From Unio delphinus (taxonomy: Eukaryota > Mollusca > Bivalvia > Unionida > Unionidae): a DNA stretch of 64,000 bases. The first letter of the stretch is position 1. Each line of letters opens with the position of its first letter. The DNA is taken from contig JAQISU010000170.1 of NCBI GenBank assembly GCA_029339505.1, positions 1,886,001-1,950,000 of the forward strand, read 5' to 3'. The position numbers were made by a program, and so were the translations under genes. This document shows positions 10,001 through 62,571 of this stretch, one piece after another. The notes under the pieces were generated by a model, which saw only the letters and a list, made by a program, of their open reading frames with translations, did no database searches and was not told the origin of the DNA.

Positions 10001-13000
10001 CTGTAATAAAAAAGAATAGAGAATGTGTAACTGAGCGAACATTGAATCTAACATTTTAACACCTTGCTACATTATATGTTTTCTCAGAGACAGACAGACA
10101 GATAGAGATTGTAAAAAGTAAATATTTGATTTATAATTCAGCGGCCATACCATTAACATTATCAACAGAGTTAACTCTAGCAAACCTTCCTAGTCACATA
10201 TGTGCTGGAAAGAAGAAAAAAAATAGAAAAAAAAAATTATAATTTTTTTCATCAAAGATACAATATACTAAATAAATATCGTAGCAATTGTAATAATATG
10301 CTGAAAATTCTTTTAATTTTTTTTATAAAACTGTTTTATTAATGCATCTTTACTCAACAAAAGCAAACTACAAATAATATCAAAGCTGATATATTGCAGT
10401 TTGAATATTTATTGTTAACAAAATAGACATATTCGATCCGTCCATTAATATTTTTTCTTCTTCGTTTATGAATCATCAATTATGTTTATATCACACAACT
10501 TTTCTGAATATCTTATTAAAAATATATGGCAGCTGAAAAGTGACATATTTGAATTTTTTTTACTGATTTTAATAATTTAATTTAGAAGCTTGAATAACTG
10601 TTCCTGGCTTTTACTTGCTGCGATAAATTTAGAAGGAATGCGGTCGCTTAATTATACATGACATTATGGTCCTCTGCGGGAATCAAGATAACGACGTAAG
10701 TTTAAATCTACTGCTGTTTAATTTCCCCCACCCCCACCCCTTACGGGAAATATAATGTTAATATTTGTTAGAGACAAACATTTTTTAAAAAAATAAAGCT
10801 TGCATCAAAAGTGATGTAACTCCAAATTTTATGAAATATTTGAAGCTTGTCTAACTATAACACTCTTGTTGTCACAAAATAACGCGGCTGCCATAGTAAT
10901 GACTATCTTTCTAATTGATACGCACAACGATGCATGTTATGAGTTCTCCGGCAACAGTCAGATTAAAAATATAAATTGATGAATGAAATTATTTCGGTTT
11001 ATACAATTTTATATTTTTGATGCATTTAGATGTTAAAATCGATAGTGAGTACAGGTTTCCATTAGTTTGGGCTGTTAATATAATCATCATAAATTCCTTT
11101 TGAAAATATGTAGCAAATTTTTTAGAAAATGTCTAAGGGAGACAATCAAAGCAATTTGGGGTAATCAGATATTAGCCATTTTCAAGGACAAAAATTCTCG
11201 TTTTCACAGTGTAAACTATCAATGAATACATGATTTAATGTAACGTCTTCTATATAATCCTCGAAAACCTTCATCCAGGCACTAAATTGTCCTGACCTCC
11301 CCAAAAAAGACTTTTCTAGGTATTCATTGTGATTGCATCTCAGCAAAAAATAAATATCAACATCAACATCAGTGAGATTACTACTGGCAGGGGAGAATTC
11401 TGGGGAAATGTAATGGAAGATGTGTAGTTTCTTAATACTGTGTTTTAATCTTAAGCACTATGCAATCCACAAAATACCTATCACGATACCGACCTGAACA
11501 AGCTATAGCTTCCCAAATGACTCAACGCTCTCGAAATGTGTCTTTCCTCATTTTGATCAAACTATAACTTGAATGTTTGCATTCCAAGAAATATAATTAA
11601 TTGTATTCCAAGAAATATAATTAATTGTATTCCAAGAAATATAATTAATTGTATTCCAAGAAATATAGTTTTGTTCCTGGTTTAACAAAATATATGATGT
11701 CATATGATTTACAAGAGGTTCTAATCAGTAAGTATTTTAGCTTAGAAGAATTTTTTTTTTCAATTGTCACATTATTTACATGGTTTTTAAGAGGAATAAT
11801 TCTGTGTGTTCATTTTTAAAATCAAGTTGTCTTTGCTTCCCATCTATTCAAAGTTAATAACGAAGATACTTTGGGTTGATGCATTATACGAAAGTGCTAT
11901 GGAATAAATGTAATACAGTTAATTGAAGCAAGAAGAAAAATTGAATTTACTCCATGTCAGTAATAATGATTTTCATTCATCGCTGTAATTATCCAGTAAA
12001 TGAGTGAGTTAGCATTATTATTATCGTCACGATTAATAACTAACTCTTAGCATTGCCTGGCAGTGATCGAGTTGGGGCACTAAAAGATGCGAAACAAATA
12101 CCAGCCATCGCATTATTATACTGCAGGAAATACATTTACATGGAATGACTATCAGACCATACAATGTTAGCATTTTACTTTGATACTTGGACGAAAAGAA
12201 AACTTGGCGCATTACAGAGAGTGGTTAGCCACTATCTTTGTCTCTCAGAGATTCCAGGTTTGATATCAGATTCCAACCTATGCAAAGTCATTGGTTAACA
12301 TTCTGTTATCGATGATTGTCACATATCAATACGGTTCTGTACATTTCAGGAACACCTTTTGTGTATTAGCATTTCTCTTAGGAAACATTATGGATACCCT
12401 GAGGCAAAATATGTCTCAATAAAGTAAAACGTACCCGGATTTCGCAAAATTCGTCCACATCAGGACCATTTTCTTTGATAGGTCCATCTCTGCCGCCGTT
12501 GCTCCTCCGTCCTGGTAGTGCATTCCAGCAGCCATCGAATATGGTAAGCCGAAAACATAGGGCACCTCATCGCCATGGTTAGCACCATTTAAATAAGTGG
12601 GGTCTTGTGAGAAAGACGATCTCTGGTCAAACTCATATACATATGTAGTTTTATGGTTGGCATTTTTAGCATGGGGAAGAAGCACCCTCAAAACTGGCAT
12701 GTAGAAATTATAGTCAGCAGACAGTCTGAGAAGACTCTGCAGGGTGTTGTTGGCGTTGTCGGGATCATTCCAGTCGGTGTATTGATGGATAAGTAGTCTC
12801 TTTAGGGCATCATCATTTTTACCAACTATGTCACGGACAAACATTGGAATAAATGTCTCCTCGAAAAATTTCCTTGGTACACCATTGGTGAAACTCTGGT
12901 TCATTAGTTGCTGCAGGTACGGCTGCAGAGCAAGTATTGCCACGAAAGCGCCGTCGTAACTATTGGAGCCAATAAGTAAATCTATGTTCAGGAGACCAGA

Positions 13001-13975
13001 TGCATTTACATAGGAATCTGTCGGCTTCTCAGACAGGAAATGTCCGTCTTTCACCGGAACCCATTCAGCACGAAAGACCTTCTCGTCCTGGCTCCCCACA
13101 ACAGCATTGCTGATGATATCTTCGAAAGATTTCTTTCTTAAGCAATCTAGTATTGCGACTGACGATCCATATGGACAATTAAAAGCTTTAGCTAGACGTT
13201 CTGCGTATTTTTTGGGGTGTTCCTCAAAAGCCCAAGGGCAAAATGGGCTACCGCTTTCGACGATGATCCTCTTAAAGTAGCCTTGATTTTCTCTGAACAA
13301 AGCTTGTGTTATAGCGCTAGCCGCTCCAGCGGAGTTCCCAAATATAGTCACCATATGAGGGTCTCCTCCAAAAGCGGCAATATTGTCGTGTACCCATTTG
13401 ATGGCCAGTCTCTGATCCCATAAACCGAAATTACCGGGTGCATTATCATCTTCTGTGCTAAGGAAACCGAGGGCTGACAATCGATAGTTGAACGTTACTA
13501 CCACGACATCACCAAGCATGGCCACATTCTCTGCAGCATAGATTCCTGCCTGACCGATTACGTAAGCTCCTCCATAGATCCAGATCATAACGGGATACTT
13601 TTTTCCGGAAGTTACTGCTGCCTCTGGAACGAAGACATTAATTGTAAGGCAGTCCTCAGACTGGGCGGGGTTGCCAGGCAACCATTGTTGTAAATAGAAC
13701 GAAAACTGCGGACAGCCTTTTCCGAAGGTGCTTGCATTAAATGGGGATGTAAATGATGCCTTTGGTACGGGTTTACTGAACCGTCTTTGTCCAATAGGTG
13801 GTTCAGCGAATGGAATCCCTAGATACTGATAAACTTTGCCAGTTTTTCCTCCAAAGGTCGCAGACGTTGAGTGACCAATGATTGATCCAGCTGTGCTATT
13901 TACTATTCTGGAGTCTCCATTAGCAAAGCCGAGGAAAATAATATATATAACTACTTGGAATAAAAAAGTCGCCAT
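9781..13975 (-). CDS. Secreted type-B carboxylesterase / cholinesterase-like protein, two exons
   Basis: Exon 1 (13975-12435) ends at a GT donor inside TCCGGGTACGT. Exon 2 (10000-9781) follows a TTTTTTATTACAG acceptor, and the join completes a glycine codon, giving about 586 codons. Residues 1-20 form a signal peptide. An alpha/beta-hydrolase fold follows, with EDCLTINVFVP (107-117), oxyanion-hole GGA (135-137) and FNYRLSALGFLS. The nucleophile elbow is GNSAG with Ser215, where most of the family has GESAG. His467 lies in NHGDEVPYVFG. The acid of the triad appears to be Asp341 (SYDGAF), where cholinesterases have Glu. Exon 2 supplies the usual C-terminal segment with NPNTP, TWPVF, YIYL and DFWLNL. 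The family hydrolyses carboxyl esters; this protein is probably secreted, with unknown substrate. No membrane anchor is seen. Confidence 0.9.
10001..12434 (-). other. Esterase intron
   Basis: A 2434-bp GT-AG intron. It is AT-rich and holds the 24-bp tandem repeat at 11581-11667; nothing else is recognised. Confidence 0.8.
11581..11667. repeat. 24-bp tandem repeat, 3.6 units
   Basis: Near-perfect units ATTCCAAGAAATATAATTAA plus TTGT. The units are almost identical, so the array is young. Confidence 0.95.
12435..13975 (-). CDS. Esterase exon 1
   Basis: Codons 1 to 513 plus two bases of codon 514. The ATG at 13975-13973 is followed directly by the signal peptide. The frame would run on to 12416 if unspliced, adding a non-homologous YVLLY tail, which argues for use of the donor at 12434-12433. 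Confidence 0.9.
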
Positions 13976-23433: not shown

Positions 23434-23789
23434 GACAAACCTGCTATATGCAAGCCTGTTTCAGAACAAGAGTAAGAAGAAACCGACATAATTGTTTGTA
23501 TGCATGTACCTGCATATATCGTGTTTGCTACAGGGTGCAGACATGATAATGACCTGCAAGTGTATCACAGAGACAATGCAGACAATTCCTGTTAATGCAA
23601 TTACCCAGAGATGTGTTCGTTATTAATTTTTATTCTTTTAAACGTAACAGGAATTGTCTTTAATACCACTGACATAACAAACTATTATTTGGTACAGTTC
23701 TTCGTATGATCTTTCTGGAGTATGTTCTTAATTCTGCTGAGTCAAACTCGTTTGTCGTCATTATCCTTTTTCATGAAAAGTAATTTTCT

Positions 23790-24230
23790 GCTATATTGCA
23801 CTGATTTGCATTATCACTAGCTTTAGCCGGAGCCAACCCACTACTCAGTGTTTCGTATCACTGTATTTGTCCAAAAGAGGTTGCAGCTCCTTCAGTTATT
23901 TATTGTTTATTTATTGTGAAATGCTTTCATACAGCATTCCTAAAGTGATAGCTGCTTTACCTTCATGAAACGGTGTGCACTCGTTGATTCAATTTTCTTA
24001 AAGTCACGTCTCAAACATGTTGTTATATATAAATTGCGCTGCCTTGATCTACAAAGATGACAAAGATGATAACGACAGTAGCTTCTGCTTTTTTAAGTGG
24101 CAAGCTTCACGCATACTTACATAAAACTAAATGTTTTACGTCTCTGTTCTATTCAGACAAAATGGGCTTCATGTCGATTACATCAGCAGACCAAATATCA
24201 TCTATTACCATTACCAATAATTCTACGCCT
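23790..24230 (-). pseudogene. Polinton integrase (retroviral type), broken
   Basis: The minus strand shows the DDE core in order. DDIWSADVIDM (about 24207-24175) carries the first aspartate, in the D-x-W-x-x-D-L-V-x-M setting typical of Polinton integrases. After an interval containing LPLKK comes VDQGSAIY (about 24053-24030) with the second aspartate. FHEGKAAI (about 23972-23948) fits the HNEGKA block of the catalytic glutamate. The downstream KYSDTKH and APAKAS resemble the usual YNNTKH-x-x-x-x-x-P-x-x-A segment. Stops occur after the first block and a frame change lies between the second and third. These proteins insert Polinton DNA and make 6-bp target duplications. This copy cannot be translated. 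Confidence 0.75.
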
Positions 24231-25049
24231 TGGACAGACAATGGCGTCTTAGCTACTTATGTAATTTACGTTTCAGCAAAACACAAAACACGTACAATAT
24301 GTCTCTGCTTCAAGTTACCACACTGTGCTTCTCGGGACAGCAGCTGACAACTTTGACATTTACAACCCTGGATTTTCTTTTTCCACACTCAGCACATATA
24401 TAATTCACCACCGAGGTGTTGTTCGTGATTTTAGATACAGTGTCTGCAAAGCTTTATGTATTTGTTTTGTAAGATAAGCATCATGTTACTTCAATTTCAG
24501 TCAAAACATGTGATCTATGACGATGCAGGACTAACCATGATTACATCACCGACTACCTACTAAACATACTCAAGATTAGCTCGTGGTTGTCCAAAGGCCG
24601 AATTTCCTTGTCATCGGAATCCGATAAAATAAATACAAGCTGCGCTATCCACATGCTTAATTTGTGATACGTTATAAACACATGTTTTCTTGTAGCCTGA
24701 GATCTATTTACTGGAGTGAGATGGAGACATATGAAACAAAAATGTCTTGCATCGTTATTATCTATCTTGCTGTCTCAGGCGGCTCAGAACCTTCAAAATA
24801 ATTGTCTATGTTCATCACGCATCTTTCATCCCCTTGACCGTTTTGGCAGCGTATCTTTGGAACTAAACACTAGATAATGTTTCTAAGCCCTTTCTCCATG
24901 ATGTTATTGCTTAGCAGAGTTGTGTCCCTGGCAGCTGCAGACCGAGCGTTCGTTTTGTTTTTTCATCTACGCCACACCTTTTACATCTACGCCATACCTA
25001 AAAAGTTGCTAAGTACATACTTATATTGAATTTACGACGTTTTCACCCT

Positions 25050-25540: not shown

Positions 25541-27029
25541 CCTTTCTGATCGGCATGACCATGTAAAAGCTTTAAACAAAACGCTATACTAAAATATTGT
25601 GTTTTTATTATGTGCTTTGACTTTAACATAGGCTATGCAGTTATGTTTTCATTCGATATGTTTTGACATGTCAAAATGAAACAATTTCGTCTAGTTTTAT
25701 TTGCAATCCTATAATGACCAATTTATATATTTGCATGGTCTCTTGAAACATGAAGTACACTTCTGCGTAATATTTGCTAAGTTGTGTAAAAACAAAAAAA
25801 CACAATTCGACATCGTGATCATGATACACGCTGATATTGATTCTAACAGGGATACAAGTCAAACACTTGACTGATTCTGTCTTGACCAGTGTCACGCGTA
25901 ACACGTTGAAACGATACAAAAACATGTCCAGGCAACTCGCTGCATGGCAAGATAGCTACTCTCCAAGTTGTGGCACCATGTACGTGGCACCTTTATACAT
26001 ACGCATCTCGAAATAATGTTCAGATTAAATACAGAAAATGCAAGTTGTTTAGCTTTAAGGCGTAATAGATTGATTGTATCATCTGTCGCATCCACAGGGA
26101 ACACTTAGTGAGTCTGAATTGCCTATCATCCACCACAACAGAGCAATGGATATGCGTGCGTAACGCCTTAAACCCGGATGTTAACGCCTTTAAAATTGGA
26201 TATCTCCTGCCTCCAGTATTGTGACCATAGTGGATTCTCTGATCATGGCTTAGTCAAAGTCGCTAGATATTTGTAAAAACGGCGTCGGTGCCTTCAGTTA
26301 GCACATATTAGGCCGATCAATATTATGCACAATATTTTGCTGATTCAAGCGAACAATATTTTTTCAAAGATGCATACATTGTGCAGGACAACATCTAGCA
26401 TCAGCGATCGTCAGTAACCAGAAGTTTCTTCTGCCACATGTGTGTTGTCGCTGTCTGAATAAACTAACCCAGGTGATATCATTATATGAAGACGAATTCA
26501 TCATGTCAGATTTGTTTAAGTCACAATTTTATGTAAAATAACTATATCAACTATTAACAACAGCCACGACATTTTATGCAATCCATCAATTCGGGGTTGT
26601 GCACAATCGATGTATAATCATTCGCGGATTATGATTTTTGTGCAACAACAAAAATATAGTTGACTCAAATATTGGATACAAGTGAAAGCATGTATTGGGC
26701 AATCCCTGAGCGTTTTAGAAAAGCTTTCTCCAAAACCAAATACGTATAAAAGTACTTTTCTTGATATAAGACAACCTTTACATCTCATGATGATAAAAAT
26801 GTCTACGCTCTCAGGTTTTAAGCGAAAGTACGATGTGCCCTTTAAACCTTCAGATGACACCATAATCCCCATCAGCCCATACTAATCATGCATGCCAACT
26901 CTGGTAACGGTGCATTGTAGATAACATGAGATTCATTTCATAAAATAACAAAAACACATACAACAAATTTCACTAATTATAAGTTGATTTGATTAATATC
27001 AACATTTCAGCTTAATTTTAGAATACAGT
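25540..27029. other. No gene recognised
   Basis: Short open frames only. GATCATGGCTTAGTC near 26240 faintly recalls the SDH motif of LINE endonucleases but is too short to call. Confidence 0.4.
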
Positions 27030-28903
27030 ATAAGTCATGCAATGTTAATAATGCGACCATTTATGGACCTTATGGAGGTGTCGGGGTACTTTATCGTAGA
27101 TCTCTCGCAAGTATTATCGAAGTACAACATTTCGATGATCCCAGATTAATAGGTATTACTATCCATACGGGGGATTCCTACATGCTTTTTATAGATACAT
27201 ATTTACCTTGCGATCTTGCGGAAAAGTTTGGAGAATTTGTAGATTATTTGGGCAAAATTAATTCTATTGTAGAAAATGCTAATACGCTAAATGCTTATGT
27301 AGTAGGAGATTGGAATGCTAATACGCTCCAATCCACTTCCTTTGGAGATGAGCTTCGCCTATTTTGTGACGAATATGGTTATATCATATCGGACTTAAAA
27401 TTAATTGTAGACTACACAACTAATTTTACTTACGTCAGTGATTCACACAATGCAGTGTCTTGGTTGGATCATTGTATCTCTACACAGTCTGCTCATTCCG
27501 CTATAAGTGATATGAGAATACTTCATACCCTAGTAGGGTCCGACCATCATCCTACTTTAATGACTATTAAGACTGAATTGCTTCCCAAATTTGATTCATG
27601 CCCCAATGAACTCTTAAACTTGAAATACAACATCAGTTGGTCAGACCTTACTGCTGACGAAAAACTGAATTATACTCTGACTTCTGCATTCCTATTAAAC
27701 AAGATTGAGATCCCACATTGTGTCGCGATCTGTAATGACCACGGCTGCACTTACCAGGTGCATATGAAATAGATAAATGAATTATACACTGATATAGCAA
27801 AAGCCTTGACTAGTAAATCCAAACGTAGTCACCGGATTATACCAGGTTGGAATGACTGTGTCAAAGAATTACATGATTTCGCACGAAATGCTTACCTTAT
27901 GTGGGGTGATAACGGTAAACCTCGTCACGGCCATCTTAGTAATCAAATGCGTCAAACAAGAGCACAAGTTAAGTATGCTCTTAGATTATGTAAGAAGGAG
28001 GAAGTTACACACAGAGCAGACTCGCTAGCACAAAGATTTGAAAATGTCGACCAACGTGAATTTCGGAAGCATGTTAAACAACATACCACCACAACTTCCA
28101 ATAAATTACCAATTTGCATTGATGGGAACCATGGTCAGAATAATATATGCAACATGTGGAGAAATCATTTTGAAGACTTACTTAATAGTGTAAAAAATGA
28201 ATCGAATAAAAAGTATGTACTTTCAGCATTGAATGCACCTTCTGCTCGTATTGAAGTAATCACATTATCTGAGATCCAACGTGCTATAGCAAGACAAAAA
28301 GGTGGTAAATGTCCAGGTTCAAATTTATTATATGTGGAACATTTAAAATTTTCAGATACTAGACTTCATGTGTTATTGATGATTTTATTTAACTGTATGT
28401 TTGTGCATAACTTTGTACCAGATGATTTCACAAAAGTTACCATTATACCGCTACTAAAAAGCAAAATTGGTAACATAGCGGACAATAATAACTACAGACC
28501 TATAGCTGTTACGATTATTATTTCAAAAATATTTGAATGCATCATTCTGCAGAGATGTGAAGTTACAATCTCTGATAATCAGTTTGGTTTTAAAAAGCAG
28601 CATTCAACTGATTTATGCATATATGCTTTTAAGGAAGCTGTCAGCTATTATGTAGAACATGGCAGCCCAGTGTTTGCATGTTTTTAGACGCTACCAAGGC
28701 ATTTGATAGGGTCAATCACTGGATACTCTTTAAAAAGTTGATTGATATGAAAATACAGGTCTACATAGTTCATACTTTAGTTAACTGGTATGGGAAACAG
28801 TTGAATCGTGTGCGATCGGGAAGTGTAATATCCCGCGCTTTCAATGTAACCAATGGGGTGAGGGGGTGAGGCAGGGTTGAATTATTTTTCCCTTGTTATT
28901 CAA
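27030..28903 (+). mobile_element. Non-LTR retrotransposon (LINE), endonuclease plus partial reverse transcriptase
   Basis: A single plus-strand frame, broken by one TAG (27770-27772), runs from about 27030 to 28687. The apurinic-type endonuclease part has PYGGVGVLYRRS (near 27070), VVGDWNAN (27300-27325), SWLDHCIST and SDHHPTLM. The linker with IIPGWNDCVKELH and HFEDLLN leads to reverse transcriptase with the finger NNYRPIAVTIIISKIFE (28490-28540) and NQFGFKKQHST. At about 28680 the frame shifts by one, and motif A FLDATKAFDRVNHWILF continues from 28678. It stops near VRQG (28866-28877, followed by TGA) and a TA run, so the FADD catalytic box is absent. The layout suits CR1/Jockey-like clades, not assigned further. 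The copy is dead, truncated at both ends, and moderately young judging by few lesions. Confidence 0.85.
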
Positions 28904-36331: not shown

Positions 36332-45308
<8,977 letters not shown>

Positions 45309-56954: not shown

Positions 56955-56959
56955 TGCAC
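56955..56959. repeat. Target-site duplication, left (TGCAC)
   Basis: Identical to 62567-62571 directly outside the opposite terminal repeat. Confidence 0.65.
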
Positions 56960-57204
56960 AGCAGCAGGGTGGGGGTGGGGGGTGAACAGACCTGATTTAC
57001 AGAAGGTTATATTAGTTAAACAAAGGCTCTTACAAAAACGAAAAATAATCAGGTAAATAACGACAAACCTAAACCTCTAACTTTAGAGAGAGTCTCTCCA
57101 GTGTTAGTTTTTTTCTTTACTAGTTGGTGTCTTGGTATTTTTCTAAAAATAAAACGCTGTGTTTACTCCGATGATCTCTTAACGAGGTCACACCCTCCCT
57201 GCTG
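56960..57204. repeat. Left terminal inverted repeat
   Basis: Its reverse complement aligns with 62334-62566 almost throughout, including CAGCAGGGAGGGTGTGACCT, GACACCAACTAGTAA and AATATAACCTTCT. The outer end has an expanded GGGTGGGGGTGGGGGGTG tract. It is bounded inside by CACCCTCCCTGCTG, the mirror of its outer end. Confidence 0.9.
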
Positions 57205-57332
57205 ATATTATCCAAAAGTTTATCAAGACCGACTCTAAATCTTGATAGAGAATCATGTAAATGCATTGTTATAAATCCTTGTGGGGGTGCCTGAGCATGA
57301 CTAACTACAATTTTTAAAATATTATAATCCAT
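57120..57332 (-). pseudogene. Unassigned coding remnant running into left terminal repeat
   Basis: A 70-codon minus frame with HAQAPPQGFITMHLHDSLSR and DKLLDNISREG has a normal composition and ends inside the terminal repeat. It lies downstream of the ATPase remnant and could be the end of a viral gene. I do not recognise the family. Confidence 0.3.
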
Positions 57333-57459
57333 ATCACCACTACATCAAATCTAATGAATATTTCGGAATGTATGTGTGTTGATCCCGTTAAATACAGCTA
57401 AAATATTGCAGTTATCCCTGATAACTTTTGGTATTTTGTATATCGTTGTGTTACATATA

Positions 57460-57740
57460 TTACATCTGTTTGTATTTCTGTTTGTCCAACATTACATCAT
57501 TGTACACAACTAAATTAAATATAGATCCATCAAGGTCATCTACAGATGGCGCTTCATCAATAACAGTGATAAAATTAATGATATCATCACCATATTCATT
57601 TATCGTCACTGTGTTTTCATTAAGCTCTTTAAGTACATCGTAGCATCGCTGACTATCTACAGATGGAGCTATCAGATACAAATTATCCCATTTCAACCAC
57701 CTCATTATCAAATTAAGTAACAACGTCGTTTTTGTTCACT
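57460..57740 (-). pseudogene. Genome-packaging ATPase (A32/FtsK-HerA type) fragment
   Basis: The frame 57723-57460 starts with LLLNLIMRWLKWDNLYLIAP, the stretch that follows the P-loop in Polinton packaging ATPases. It continues to FNLVVYNDVMLDKQKY, which fits the Walker B segment normally ending in two acidic residues; here the first is asparagine. Upstream, KTTLLL looks like the end of the Walker A loop but is preceded by an in-frame TGA at 57738-57736, and the glycines are lost. The protein ends about ten residues after Walker B, so the catalytic core is truncated. Such ATPases pump DNA into capsids; this copy is inactive. Confidence 0.6.
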
Positions 57741-57852
57741 TCAAGATGGACTTATCATAATCATTCTGATATAATTTGGTAGCGCTGCATGTCTTTTTTA
57801 CCGGATCTTGTCACCGAGAAAGCAATTACATTCATGATATATAATAATTAGT

Positions 57853-58078
57853 ATGGGTTTCTATTGTGCTAAATGCGAAAGGCCTACTACTAAAGGTGAA
57901 TTAATGACCATCAGAATGAAAGAAAATAGACCAACAGGTACTGGTAGGTGTGGTACGAAAATGTTTTAATTTATATCCGCTGACGAATCAATTTTTGTTT
58001 CAAAAACGAGGAGGTGATATTGCAGCAAAATTAACAAAATTACCGGGAACACCGTGAGCTAAATACCCAGGAGAAAAA
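57853..58078 (+). pseudogene. Zinc-ribbon (DUF5679-like) capsid-associated protein, interrupted
   Basis: The plus strand from ATG 57853 reads MGFYCAKCERPTTKGELM and continues through RMKENRPTGTGRCGTKMF. This is a small zinc ribbon: the CxxC half is intact, but only one cysteine of the second pair remains. After a frame change, KRGGDIAAKLTKLPGTP (about 58003-58053) resembles the segment after the ribbon in Polinton proteins that go on to a phospholipase-like capsid domain. The match ends at about 58078, where an ACT/ATT repeat block begins, so the gene was cut by an insertion. It is the only recognised gene on the plus strand of this element and is divergent from the ATPase. Confidence 0.5.
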
Positions 58079-58101
58079 CACTATTAAAGATATATTACTA
58101 C

Positions 58102-58151
<50 letters not shown>

Positions 58152-58239
58152 TTATTATTACTACTACTACTATTATTATTACTACTACTACTACTATTAT
58201 TATTATTACTACTACTACTATTATTAATAATAATAATAC

Positions 58240-58311
<72 letters not shown>

Positions 58312-58690
58312 CTGTGTAGCACATAATCTTTAGAAGCTCTAAACGCTTTACAACATCAATAATGATATGAATACAAAAAACGAGAAACAAAAAACAAACA
58401 CCATGAATTTCAAAAACAAGAAAAAAAACTGAAAATATTTAAGGTAGGAAACATTTTAGGTCTTAAAGTTTGTTAAAATCTTCGAAATAGGTGAGTTTTA
58501 AGATCGCTCTTGAAAAGGATCACTGTCTTTGTGTCTAATTGCAATGGGCAATTCAGTCCACGTTGCTTGGCCCTGGTATGCAAAATAACGTTGCCCATAT
58601 GACTTCGTTTTTATAGTAGGAATACTGCGTATACGATTGTATGAAGAGGAGCGTAAGTATCTTGCTCGTGTTTATACATGGGTGAGGCCG
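58079..58690 (+). repeat. Dispersed non-coding repeat inserted in the viral element
   Basis: ACT/ATT/AAT trinucleotide blocks (58087-58308) lead into TTTAGAAGCTCTAAACGCTT, shared with 3586-3660. A block with GGTGAGTTTTAAGATCGCTC and GGGCAATTCAGTCCACG follows. Its content is unlike the viral genes on either side. The end is approximate. Confidence 0.65.
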
Positions 58691-58856
58691 GAGAGGTATC
58701 CTGGACTGGAGACCGTCAGTGAAACGTAGCAAGTTTTCTCTATATGTTTTATGTTTATTGCTAATAATATTTCAATAATATCTTTTTCAGTGAGAGTAGT
58801 AGAATTAAAATATTCACAGTACATTTCATTATTATAAATATAAAGGGTAGTCATGA

Positions 58857-59556
58857 CTAAATAATATATAATACATGATTCATGCAATAGGGTAATTCAA
58901 TTTTATGATATATTCGTCTAGGACTCTTTGATACATGTAGATATTTCTTTCTTGCAATTATATTAAGAACACCTGCGATTGTTGTTGCCGCTAAAACACA
59001 AATTGTCACAACTGTTGGGGCAATCACTAATTGCGTTATGGTCGAAATCAACAGACCGTTTCCAGGAATAACAGCTAAAGTTAAGTCATACACGTTCCGC
59101 AGCGCTGATAAGGTATTGTCTGCGGTGCGGTAAACATCGACATACATTTTTGTTGCCGCATCCTTGTCGGATAATGGATTTCCAAGTACGGATATTTTAT
59201 TCCCGTTCATGTTGAGTTTGTGAGTTTGCCTGTCATTGTAACACCAGATTTTTGTACTAGCGAGCGAATATTATCAGATACAGGTGAAAAGAAAACACCG
59301 GGTGTTTTATTTTCCCGCTGACGAGGATATGGAAATTTCGGTTACTCTATTAATTGTATCGATAATATCATTTAATGAAAGAATACTCGTTTTCAATTTT
59401 CCTTGCTTATCCTGAAATACAACCATTTTGTTTCGATCCACATTTGCAAGCTTTAACAATTCTGATAATTCGTCGTTGATGATATTTTAGATTATCTTGT
59501 GATATTTCTTTAGTAGGTTTTTGTTTCGAGATAAATCCCCCGTAAATATCTACCAT
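58857..59556 (-). pseudogene. Fibre/tail-like virion protein, frameshifted
   Basis: ATG at 59556-59554 opens MVDIYGGFISKQKPTKEI. Coding then moves through three frames, with recognisable segments LLKLANVDRNKMVVFQD and LSLNDIIDTINRVTEI. The last frame (59210-58857) carries NGNKISVLGNPLSDKDAATK followed by MYVD. The motif N-x-x-x-I-x-x-L-x-x-P-x-x-x-x-D-A-x-T-K-x-Y-V-D is the trimerising stalk repeat of phage tail-fibre proteins and of fibre-like proteins in invertebrate Polinton-type elements. A hydrophobic segment (VVTICVLAATTIAGVLNII) follows near the C terminus. At least three frame changes make it a pseudogene. Assignment to a fibre rests on this motif and on position among virion genes. 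Confidence 0.5.
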
Positions 59557-59568
59557 TATGCTTTAATA

Positions 59569-59890
59569 TCATTTTGAAAAGCAATGAATCGTGTACTGGT
59601 GTACAGCTTTATGGGGTGGTTTGGTTGATTTTAGTAAAGCATCAAGTACAGCAATTACGTCTCGACAGAATATTAATGGGCTAGTCATTGTCTGTGTTGG
59701 TAATGTTGGATACCAGATCGTTACTTTGTTAGGATTGACATTCCCGATCAATTCTTTTCGCGGGGTTGACCCATACGGATAGAAATAAATAATTGCACGA
59801 GGATCAGTCTTGTATGCGGTCCAGTAAGTTCCAGGTCCTCTGACATTATACCGGTTTCACCGCGGTTTGGTCTGGAAGGTAACTGATCTC
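59569..59890 (-). pseudogene. Adenain-type cysteine protease, catalytic residues lost
   Basis: GPGTYWTAYKTDPRAIIYFY followed by PYG (59843-59770) aligns with the block of adenovirus-type maturation proteases that holds catalytic His (G-x-x-H-W-x-A) and Asp/Glu (F-[DE]-P-F-G). Here His is Tyr and the acid is Tyr, so two of three catalytic residues are gone. A cysteine at IFCRDVIAVLDALL lies where the nucleophile region would be. The N-terminal piece LPSRPNRGETGIM (about 59885-59845) is in another frame. The family cleaves capsid precursors during virion maturation. The gene sits between the small capsid-like gene and the fibre-like gene. Confidence 0.65.
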
Positions 59891-59972
59891 GCATTAAAAA
59901 ACCCACCCCTGACGGTTTTTAGTTTTAGTTTTTTAGCACCATCGATTTAATCAAAATTTAACAACAACATTA

Positions 59973-60308
59973 TTAAATTGTCCCTGATAGTCTCAGACTC
60001 TTTCCGTACGTACATCGACTCCCTGGTAAGCTCTGACCAATCCCCTTGTTTTTGTATCCTTGCCCTGTAGCTTTCTTTAGTGCCCTTCCCGACGCGGCCC
60101 TGACAGTCCCAAGGGCAGCAGCTTTTGTGACAGCAAGAGCAGAAGCTGAGATTAATGCCGGTATTGCTACAAGAAGTGGAAATATACCATCTGATTTAGT
60201 TATATCTGAAATAGCACCCGCAGATAGAGTAAGTCGGATTACGGTTTTGTCATGTTTAGCATCATCTGATTGTGTTTTAGCGTCATTATGGTTCCGGACT
60301 TTTTTCAC
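59973..60308 (-). pseudogene. Small basic capsid-like protein (pX/mu-like)
   Basis: An open 111-codon minus frame. After a polar N terminus comes a hydrophobic alanine-rich stretch (DGIFPLLVAIPALISASALA), then alanine/lysine-rich RAASGRALKKATGQGYKNKG. This build (IFPLL-type start, Ala-rich middle, basic Gly-rich end) recurs in small virion proteins of Polintons and recalls adenovirus pX. The frame itself is unbroken, but its C terminus looks altered and its neighbours are dead. No catalytic role is expected; DNA or membrane interaction is inferred. Confidence 0.5.
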
Positions 60309-60423
60309 TGAGGTTGTTTGTACTTTTTTAATCTCACCGGGAGTCAGAATAAAATTACATAATGATATGACGTTTATAATATTACGACTGTTCTAATTGT
60401 GTTCCAAATTTTCCAGTGGTGGA

Positions 60424-61215
60424 TCAATGATTCCACATTTGTCCACCAGCACCTTCAATTATCATCGATTTGTCACTAAATATAACAGCCATTGTTTGGT
60501 ACCCAACCGGTTCTTCTTTACCTATATAGGCTCTAATGTCTATATCAACAACAGTTTGCCTGGTTAAATCAAGATGATTTAGCGAAAAGTAATAAATTGG
60601 ATACAATTTTGTAAAACATAATTGTGATACTTGCAAACCCGTATCTGCAGTGTGATCAATCCACATAAATGTCATCAAACGTCGATAGGCTCATGCAACC
60701 TGGTTTTGTGGTGTAATTTAACAATATATCCTTAGCTGGTTCTTGTTGACCGTTTATTCTTAGCTTGATCTCGGTAACATTGAGCTTGTCAAATATCACA
60801 TGAATATGCGTTTGCGAGTTTAACGTTTTGAAGCACAATAAAATATGTCGTTCTTCATAAACACCTTGTTGTGATGCTATATGCCATGAAAATATACCGT
60901 TAATATTACTCTGAATACCATCTGTTGGTGTTATTAGCCATGATTGTAATGACTTACCACCTTTATTCTTAAATGATAATAATGTATCTTCTTCGGTGAT
61001 TGATGGAGTCATTACTGACATCCACAATGAGAGTTTTTATAATACTACTTTACCAGCATCAGCAACACCGGCACTTCGCCAGATTGCGTCATTATCATCA
61101 CCTCTTCTTACAAGCACTACTGTATATTCAGCTCCAAGGATAACCTTAGATAATCATCAACGATACATTCCCGGTTTACGCCGATATCCATGATGCCACC
61201 TTGAAATGATTATCG
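60424..61215 (-). pseudogene. Double-jelly-roll major capsid protein, broken
   Basis: Three pieces lie in sequence. EYTVVLVRRGDDNDAIWRSA (about 61135-61070) is followed after a stop by 61027-60656, with MTPSITEEDTLLSFKN, GIFSWHIASQQGVYEERHIL and NVTEIKLRINGQQEPAKDIL. A third frame (60678-60424) holds FTKLYPIYYFSLNHLDLT and VDIDIRAYIGKEEPVGYQTM. The pattern (W-x-x-P-x-x-TPS, then INGxxxP-x-x-D, then LYPIYxFDL, then a VxIxIxF strand pair) is that of the C-terminal half of Polinton capsid proteins. The N-terminal jelly roll is mostly missing. Stops and frameshifts rule out function. Confidence 0.65.
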
Positions 61216-61260
61216 ACAAATATCAGCGGCTTCATTACTTATTTCGGCTGAGTTATTTCC

Positions 61261-62306
61261 AGCTCAATGTCCTCCTATTATAATTTCGAATCGTGCTCTG
61301 TCGGAAAGAATATTATAAGGACAGGCAATACGAGCGCTTCCTATAGACAAACCATTACCAGTAGCACCATTGTCAGGCGCATAATAAATATCTACTTTTA
61401 TTTTTAGTTGATCTATTTTTGCAGAGAACGTTAACGAATCTTGATCACCTCTACTAATACTACCCTTATTATGACCAATTCTAAAGATGTTTTTACGATA
61501 ATCATCATCATACAATTTTTGATGTTCTGATAACACATCAGAAGAATAATTCAAATTATCTGTAGTATATTTAGCTAATTGATCATCATCCATATTGTTA
61601 ATTTTCTCACAATTTCTAGGTCTAAGTTTATCAACTAATATTTGAACAGATGGAAGAAGTTCTCTCTCATGTGGTGTCTTTTGCTTTTGTTATTTCTTTC
61701 GCTGTTTTTGTTCTCCTTATTTTCGCTGCCTTCGTTCTTCATATTGACGATACACATGATTTACCGCATCGATGAATCCTATCTATGATGCATTTTCTGT
61801 GTCAGTTCGACTTGTGTGAGTTTTACGTTTATAAACATATCAGCCCAGTGGTGTAGGCCAGAAATATATTTTCCATATATCGTTCTCAGCTTATCTTTTC
61901 TATTTTCATACGTTGTAACAACAAGAGCTGTAAATCCATTTTGGATCAATTTTATCGATTACTTTTAAAGCATCTTCATTAGATATATTAGGTAATCCTT
62001 CGAGTATTTATTTCTTCATTAGATATATTACGTAATCCTTCGATTATTTATTTCTTCATCAGTTTTTGTTTCTCTTTTGTAATAGGTTTTACCAGACCAG
62101 GAAGATCCTGTAAACGTCTTGATGTTTCTTCAGTTTTCTTCAGCTCTCTTTCCGAGTTGAGAAAAGAAGTTTGGTTGTTTCAGTAGCAGGTTTTAATAAG
62201 TGTCGAGTACATTCTTACGCCTGACAGAATCACGGACTGGTAGATATTTCTTAATTGCCTCTATTCGCTCTCATACCCACTGAGTGGTTAATGCTTCAAC
62301 AACCAT
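61261..62306 (-). pseudogene. First gene of the viral element, unassigned, broken
   Basis: ATG at 62306-62304 lies about 30 bp inside the right terminal repeat. Coding can be followed through several frames: PVRDSVRRK, ELKKTEETSRRLQDLPGLVK, NEDALKVIDKIDPKWIYSS, ISGLHHWADMFINVKLTQVE, GFIDAVNHVYRQYEERRQR, HERELLPSVQILVDKLRPRN and an intact 109-codon frame from 61593 (MDDDQLAKYTTDNLNYSSD). It is rich in charged helical sequence. A 40-bp tandem duplication at 61973-62050 lies within it. I know of similar proteins beside capsid genes in Polinton-type elements but no function. It might be a scaffold or structural protein. Confidence 0.45.
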
Positions 62307-62333
62307 TATCGATATAATAATGATTTAATTTAC

Positions 62334-62566
62334 AGCAGCAGGGAGGGTGTGACCTCGATAAGAGGTCATCGCAGTAAACATCGCGCATCTACTTTTAGAA
62401 AAATACTAAGGAAGACACCAACTAGTAACAAAAATAACTAACCCTGGAGATACTCTCTCGAAACTTAGAAGCTTTTGTGTGTAGTTATTGACGTTTTTAC
62501 TTCGTTTTTGTACGTTTAATAAATATAACCTTCTATAATTTACGTATGTGCACCCTCCCTGCTGCT
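62334..62566. repeat. Right terminal inverted repeat
   Basis: The inner border AGCAGCAGGGAGGGTG and outer border CACCCTCCCTGCTGCT mirror each other, as in the left repeat. About 80% identity with the left copy by eye. Confidence 0.9.
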
Positions 62567-62571
62567 TGCAC
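62567..62571. repeat. Target-site duplication, right (TGCAC)
   Basis: Followed by A, so a 6-bp TGCACA duplication is possible if the left A is shared with the element end. Confidence 0.65.

Follow-up and report, generated by a model that had tools for sequence, protein, structure and literature searches.

A terminal-repeat-bounded block of virion genes in Unio delphinus: most probably an old, internally deleted copy of a Tlr1-type polinton-like provirus

A stretch of 64,000 nucleotides from the bivalve Unio delphinus (assembly GCA_029339505.1, contig JAQISU010000170.1, positions 1,886,001 to 1,950,000), referred to below as the window, contains a 5.6-kb element at window positions 56,960 to 62,566 that is bounded by inverted repeats, carries relics of virion genes, and holds neither an integrase nor a polymerase. 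How did such a block come to lie between the ends of a mobile element? A reading made from the letters alone (the sequence-only reading) offered a satellite dependent on functions supplied in trans or a Polinton with an old internal deletion, and considered that the element was probably mobilised in its present form. Comparison with other copies in the same genome favours the deletion: with a probability of about 0.9 the element belongs to a multicopy family of Tlr1-type polinton-like proviruses and is an old copy, decayed and with internal sequence deleted.

The matching ends and the flanking TGCAC target-site duplication (TSD) noticed in the sequence-only reading were both confirmed (Table 1). 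The inverted ends align with a local score of 211, the maximum in 500 shuffles being 30, and a 5-bp match at the spacing of the TSD is found at 94 of 58,380 window positions. Each end is flanked on both sides by one 16-bp motif, which has four matches with at most two mismatches in the 64 kb, against a mean of 0.00 in 100 shuffles. With the low-complexity and LINE-like (long interspersed nuclear element-like) part of the cargo excluded, segments of 75 or more amino acids (aa) free of stops total 899 aa on the minus strand (shuffle mean 98, maximum 424; 500 shuffles) and 211 aa on the plus strand (shuffle mean 225). The genes themselves are frameshifted and broken.

The gene map of the window copy was obtained by tblastn with the proteins of relatives from the same genome as queries, at a threshold of E ≤ 0.01. 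The capsid, protease, packaging ATPase and, in part, fibre-like relics recognised earlier were recovered in this way. Nothing in the whole window matched the integrase (queried in two parts), the helicase-polymerase (in three), p450, or p161 at this threshold, which upholds the earlier claim that no polymerase or integrase lies inside the element; a control with reversed proteins yielded zero matches. The absence of both rests on this search. A six-frame Pfam scan of the window copy (X at stops), in which no element gene and no PolB family was found, also missed the capsid and is therefore a weak negative; it returned a match to DUF4834 (E 7e-4) located in a low-complexity stretch. An initial Pfam scan of ten window pieces yielded a single match under E 0.01, a weak one to the double-jelly-roll (DJR) capsid domain (E 0.0022, 17.7 bits, cutoff 27). 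PHROGs gave a match only to the fibre-like open reading frame (ORF; tail fibre, E 6e-6, residues 18-59 of ORF 58860-59270) and NCBIfam nothing useful, PDB sequence searches returned nothing below E 0.3, and structure predictions for two window pieces were of low confidence (pLDDT, predicted local distance difference test, 37.6 and 58.3). Viral contigs searched with five window pieces and two relatives' proteins contained no relative at E ≤ 1e-3.

Relatives are present in the mussel's own assembly (2,505,324,503 bases, 1,246 contigs), which was searched with a 168-base query from the left end. Of 166 candidates 40 were scored, giving 40 matches, two of them the window's own ends, and the 38 outside the element are covered by 37 fetched stretches (L009-L045). 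The ATPase side is shown by 20 of these 37 loci, corresponding to 19 places, as two of the loci are one element. All 19 run beyond the window's left breakpoint into the module missing from it: the zinc-ribbon/phospholipase A2 (PLA2)-like gene continues past residue 95 in 18, an integrase is present in 18, and at least one of the two is found in every place (L014, cut by the end of the locus, is without the integrase; L026 has the integrase and is without PLA2). The window's left breakpoint is shared by none of them. That all other copies might be full-length and this one a unique deletion, an outcome which the sequence-only reading had named as contrary to its proposal, is largely what was found, except that at least two other deletion forms exist: one on contig C234 (L015), with the integrase and without most virion genes, and one on C36 (L014), the ends of which are less than 1 kb apart.

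These counts make it highly unlikely that the element is a satellite, i.e., a virion-only element itself mobilised by an integrase and replication proteins acting in trans. The survival of both ends and the TSD around a block of virion genes with no piece of integrase or polymerase inside would agree with a satellite, and an isolated end unit flanked by a 5-bp duplication of its own, described below, suggests that gene-less pieces can move in trans; however, the left breakpoint recurs at 0 of the 19 readable places, and inside the block the PLA2 gene is severed, the capsid gene is reduced to half, and the scar carries a LINE-like insertion. The several copies with the same content and the same junctions expected of a virion-only family were not found among the 19 ATPase-side places.

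The breakpoints of the window copy run through genes, which points to internal loss. On the ATPase side, DNA similarity to the relatives stops within the PLA2 motif at about 58083-58100 (by eye, at about 58100), and it restarts within p250 at 58895 according to BLAST, or perhaps at 58885 by eye; the conserved C-terminal part of p250, as seen in L012, L016, and L022, is gone. The LINE-like insertion lying on this scar begins at the left breakpoint with its microsatellite tail. An insertion in L017 matches its segment 58256-58731 at 80.7% identity over 481 nt, a likeness that stops at 58731. Judged by the spacing in C254 and C101, the missing middle would amount to roughly 5 to 9.6 kb. The second scar, at 61153/61156, fuses capsid residue 241 to the end of the gene for protein A. 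The p161 gene was detected by tblastn in four of the six A-bearing loci (L012, L015, L017, and L022), not in L016 and L019, and several of the six are also without some capsid sequence of their own. The severed PLA2-like gene, the LINE-like insertion, the second deletion, and the motif copies on both sides of each end are absent from the sequence-only reading.

On this account, a full-length element would have integrated and duplicated 5 bp of its target, presumably through its own rve integrase, as the gene content of the family and the surviving ends suggest. The segment from the PLA2-like gene through the integrase, helicase-polymerase and p450 genes to part of p250 would have been lost later. 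Since the 5'-truncated LINE-like insertion sits on the scar, this loss most likely occurred in place, with or before the arrival of the LINE; a second deletion would have removed half of the capsid gene together with p161. We infer this succession of events and its timing, with loss in place as the simplest history. The supposition that the element was probably mobilised in its present form is not borne out by breakpoints that cut genes and by a LINE-like insertion on the scar. The ungapped Kimura two-parameter distance between the two ends is 0.18 for the window copy, 0.13 for C101 and 0.15 for C254, so all three look like old insertions, and the value for the window suggests long residence.

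Several points weigh against this account. The ends and the TSD would have survived equally well had the deletion preceded the insertion. Region 58101-58731 is regarded as a LINE on the strength of peptide features that we take to be those of a reverse-transcriptase tail, and the ORF adjoining the L017 insertion has no Pfam match. Between the LINE-like insertion and the right breakpoint lie 163 bp (58732-58894) with no convincing match in the fetched loci or in the window, and the longest shared word found when a target duplication of the LINE was sought is 7 bp, a figure given without a control run. Only 40 of 166 candidate end matches were scored, 17 of the 37 fetched loci are without the ATPase side and uninformative on the left breakpoint, and the comparison of breakpoints across the genome covered the left one only. 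Some of the 19 places are probably duplicates, so that the independent insertions are fewer: L034 and L035 yield identical alignments, and L027, L029, and L036 have outer flanks in common.

What the complete element would have encoded can be judged from the relatives. The gene references were taken from two loci that retain long open frames, L018 (continued in L046) and L023 (continued in L047), all on one contig (C396). The capsid protein of the family matches the DJR family PF21738 (E 8.5e-20), the ATPase Pox_A32 (E 4.7e-12), and the integrase rve, PF00665 (E 7e-8), at 33.1 bits just above the cutoff of 32.6; in older, broken copies rve was matched at E 0.044 and 0.24 or not at all. The protease match to Peptidase_C5 (E 0.011, 15.8 bits) is below the cutoff of 21.3. 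A superfamily-1 helicase is indicated by AAA_19 (E 6e-12) and AAA_30 (E 3e-9), with UvrD_C_2 (E 0.004) below its cutoff, and the helicase families gave no Pfam match in pieces of older, broken copies. The zinc-ribbon/PLA2 protein combines DUF5679 (E 5e-13) with a phospholipase A2-like domain (E 2e-11), the PLA2 domain being found also in an older, broken copy (E 4e-9), and an HNH domain (E 5e-12) is present in a neighbouring ORF of the relatives. In a 294-aa open frame of the relatives the tetrapeptide ATDS, upstream of the helicase motifs, reads by eye as motif C of a family-B polymerase with the first Asp missing; the 614-aa part preceding this frame in the relatives has no Pfam match, PolB families included. 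Parts of the helicase-polymerase gene were detected by tblastn in seven of ten loci scanned. The composite gene order, assembled from ten loci none of which has every gene, is ATPase, PLA2, integrase, helicase-polymerase, p450, p250, fibre, protease (PRO), PX, major capsid protein (MCP), p161, and A, where PX is presumably a fitting name for a small basic/membrane (core-like) protein.

Two of these relatives could at first suggest a bipartite virus whose virion and replication genes sit on different elements with common ends. The ends of L018 and L023 are 95.5% identical over 1.2 kb (the likeness extends outward at 88% over 2.4 kb), and differing gene content follows. Read further (L018/L046 and L023/L047), however, both loci turn out to contain the two modules, their virion block being inverted relative to the window-type copies; this refutes a bipartite arrangement for L018 and L023 and leaves it next to no probability for the window element.

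The end units of the family can be examined separately from its genes. The scored matches outside the window include both ends of one element on C101, C254, and C36; 5-bp TSDs were found for the window copy (TGCAC) and for C254 (GAATG), and none was found for C101. Of 40 units lying outside the window, 37 have an inner, inverted copy of the terminal motif with at most three mismatches, 23 have an outer copy that good, and 31 have by reading one of two types of family inner flank; the motif copy at the inner boundary is a family trait. In L018, L023, L024, and L037 family likeness reaches more than 200 bp beyond the 240-bp end unit, so that in some subfamilies the repeat extends outward past this unit.

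Four loci (L013, L028, L030, and L032) contain units without a cargo match. L028, on contig C340, has at 699-975 of the minus strand a solitary end unit of 277 bp between two copies of GGATT, in a locus that matches none of the family proteins, and L032 is a duplicated segment on the same contig with GGATT/GAATT (one mismatch). No duplication was found around the L013 unit, and the L030 unit continues into family inner flank. The end unit thus seems able to insert alone, as judged from the sequence of one independent site. Termini on both sides of both ends, together with the C340 unit, with no family genes in its fetched flank, and its L032 duplicate, might be expected of a composite transposon formed when two units resembling miniature inverted-repeat transposable elements (MITEs) inserted to the left and right of virus genes and afterwards moved as one. 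Such an origin is improbable, at long odds: the unit adjoins the same genes at the same place in other copies, and the inner motif and the family inner flank recur in the proportions given above. The ends are not independent of the genes between them, and because the unit recurs beside the same genes it is best seen as the family's own end, the lone units appearing derived.

With somewhat less than even confidence, we suggest that the family is an apparently animal-resident Tlr1-type lineage with an rve integrase, a polymerase-like/helicase protein, a PLA2-like domain and a DJR capsid, which exists in two gene orders differing by inversion of the virion block, keeps some long frames, and has double-ended repeats that can move alone, shedding MITE-like solo ends.

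Internal loss with retention of the ends is familiar from the internal-deletion derivatives of DNA transposons and from MITEs. The family resembles these in both its internally deleted copies and the lone end unit with its own duplication, and differs in that the window copy shows no sign of moving after its loss. Among viruses the nearest counterparts are the Tlr1-type polinton-like viruses (PLVs), i.e., Tetrahymena Tlr1 and relatives (PMC11071308, PMC4642659). Tlr1-type helicase-polymerase elements are reported from algae, from a ciliate, and from associates of giant viruses. Common to them and the family are an rve integrase, a DJR capsid, a packaging ATPase, a polymerase-like/superfamily-1-helicase protein (here by the ATDS seen by eye) and, in an adjacent ORF, an HNH-type domain; the family differs by its animal genome and its PLA2-like gene, and the window copy has in addition lost the integrase and helicase-polymerase. 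The authors of PMC11071308 regard Tlr1-like helicases as pPolB-S1H fusions with a polymerase motif upstream of the helicase. The 5-bp TSD of the family falls inside the 5-7 bp given for three integrated PLVs in PMC7805220. Intact vertebrate Polintons/Mavericks, as described in PMC8097293, measure 12.7-24.6 kb and have 6-bp TSDs and a protein-primed PolB; they share with the family the terminal inverted repeats and the rve integrase, capsid, protease, and ATPase genes, whereas the family differs by its 5-bp TSD, its helicase-bearing polymerase-like protein, and its gene order. The sequence-only description as Polinton-like, bounded by terminal repeats and capsid-bearing holds; the 6-bp TSD of strict Polintons was not found, and the family is best read as of Tlr1 type.

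Surviving ends and a TSD do not show that what moved was the element as it now stands, and a tempting example of a virion-only element is thereby removed. The family and its double-ended repeats are of more interest than the deleted copy: a copy-rich Tlr1-type lineage in an animal, if true, would widen the host range, and double-ended repeats with a solo copy would make a viral origin of MITEs testable.

Table 1. Map of the element and its target-site duplications (window positions; tblastn queries are family proteins)
Feature	Position	Strand	Evidence
TSD TGCAC, left copy	56955..56959		5-bp identity with right copy
Left terminal inverted repeat, 247 bp, with inverted terminal-motif copy at inner end	56960..57206	+	
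Packaging ATPase relic (A32 type), frameshifted	57213..57797	-	tblastn E 2e-56, several pieces, family ATPase query
Zinc-ribbon (DUF5679)/phospholipase A2-like gene, start only, severed at scar	57853..58083	+	tblastn E 8e-6; 4e-11 over 57983-58081
LINE-like insertion, 5'-truncated, microsatellite 3' tail, on deletion scar	58101..58731	-	
AT-rich stretch, 163 bp, between LINE-like insertion and resumed element sequence	58732..58894		
p250 part (about residues 63-103, membrane-spanning), C-terminal part gone	58895..59075	-	tblastn E 2e-4 over 58947-59075
Fibre-like gene relic	59094..59661	-	tblastn E 8e-13 over 59310-59661
Adenain-like protease relic	59590..60027	-	tblastn E 4e-22
PX-like small basic/membrane protein relic	59982..60365	-	tblastn E 8e-25
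Capsid relic, residues 241-479 of 489-aa family protein	60436..61153	-	tblastn E 5e-76
Scar of second internal deletion (loss of p161 and of capsid residues 1-240)	61153..61156		interval filled in other copies
Protein A relic, pieces 61156-61653 and 62214-62306	61156..62306	-	tblastn E 2e-20, 8e-6
Right terminal inverted repeat, 233 bp	62334..62566	-	
TSD TGCAC, right copy	62567..62571		

Elsewhere in the window, tblastn picked up further decayed capsid-like fragments. One, at 25858-26133 of the minus strand (E 2e-4), is accompanied by weaker pieces at 23564-24444 and also has a faint zinc-ribbon match (24352-24444, E 0.013); another lies at 43842-43961 of the plus strand (E 0.004). These fragments may represent another relic of this group, older than the element. 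A LINE remnant with endonuclease and reverse-transcriptase domains lies at 27182-28687 (plus strand), and a carboxylesterase/cholinesterase-like gene with a 519-aa open frame (COesterase, E 7e-139) is located at 12416-13975 (minus strand).

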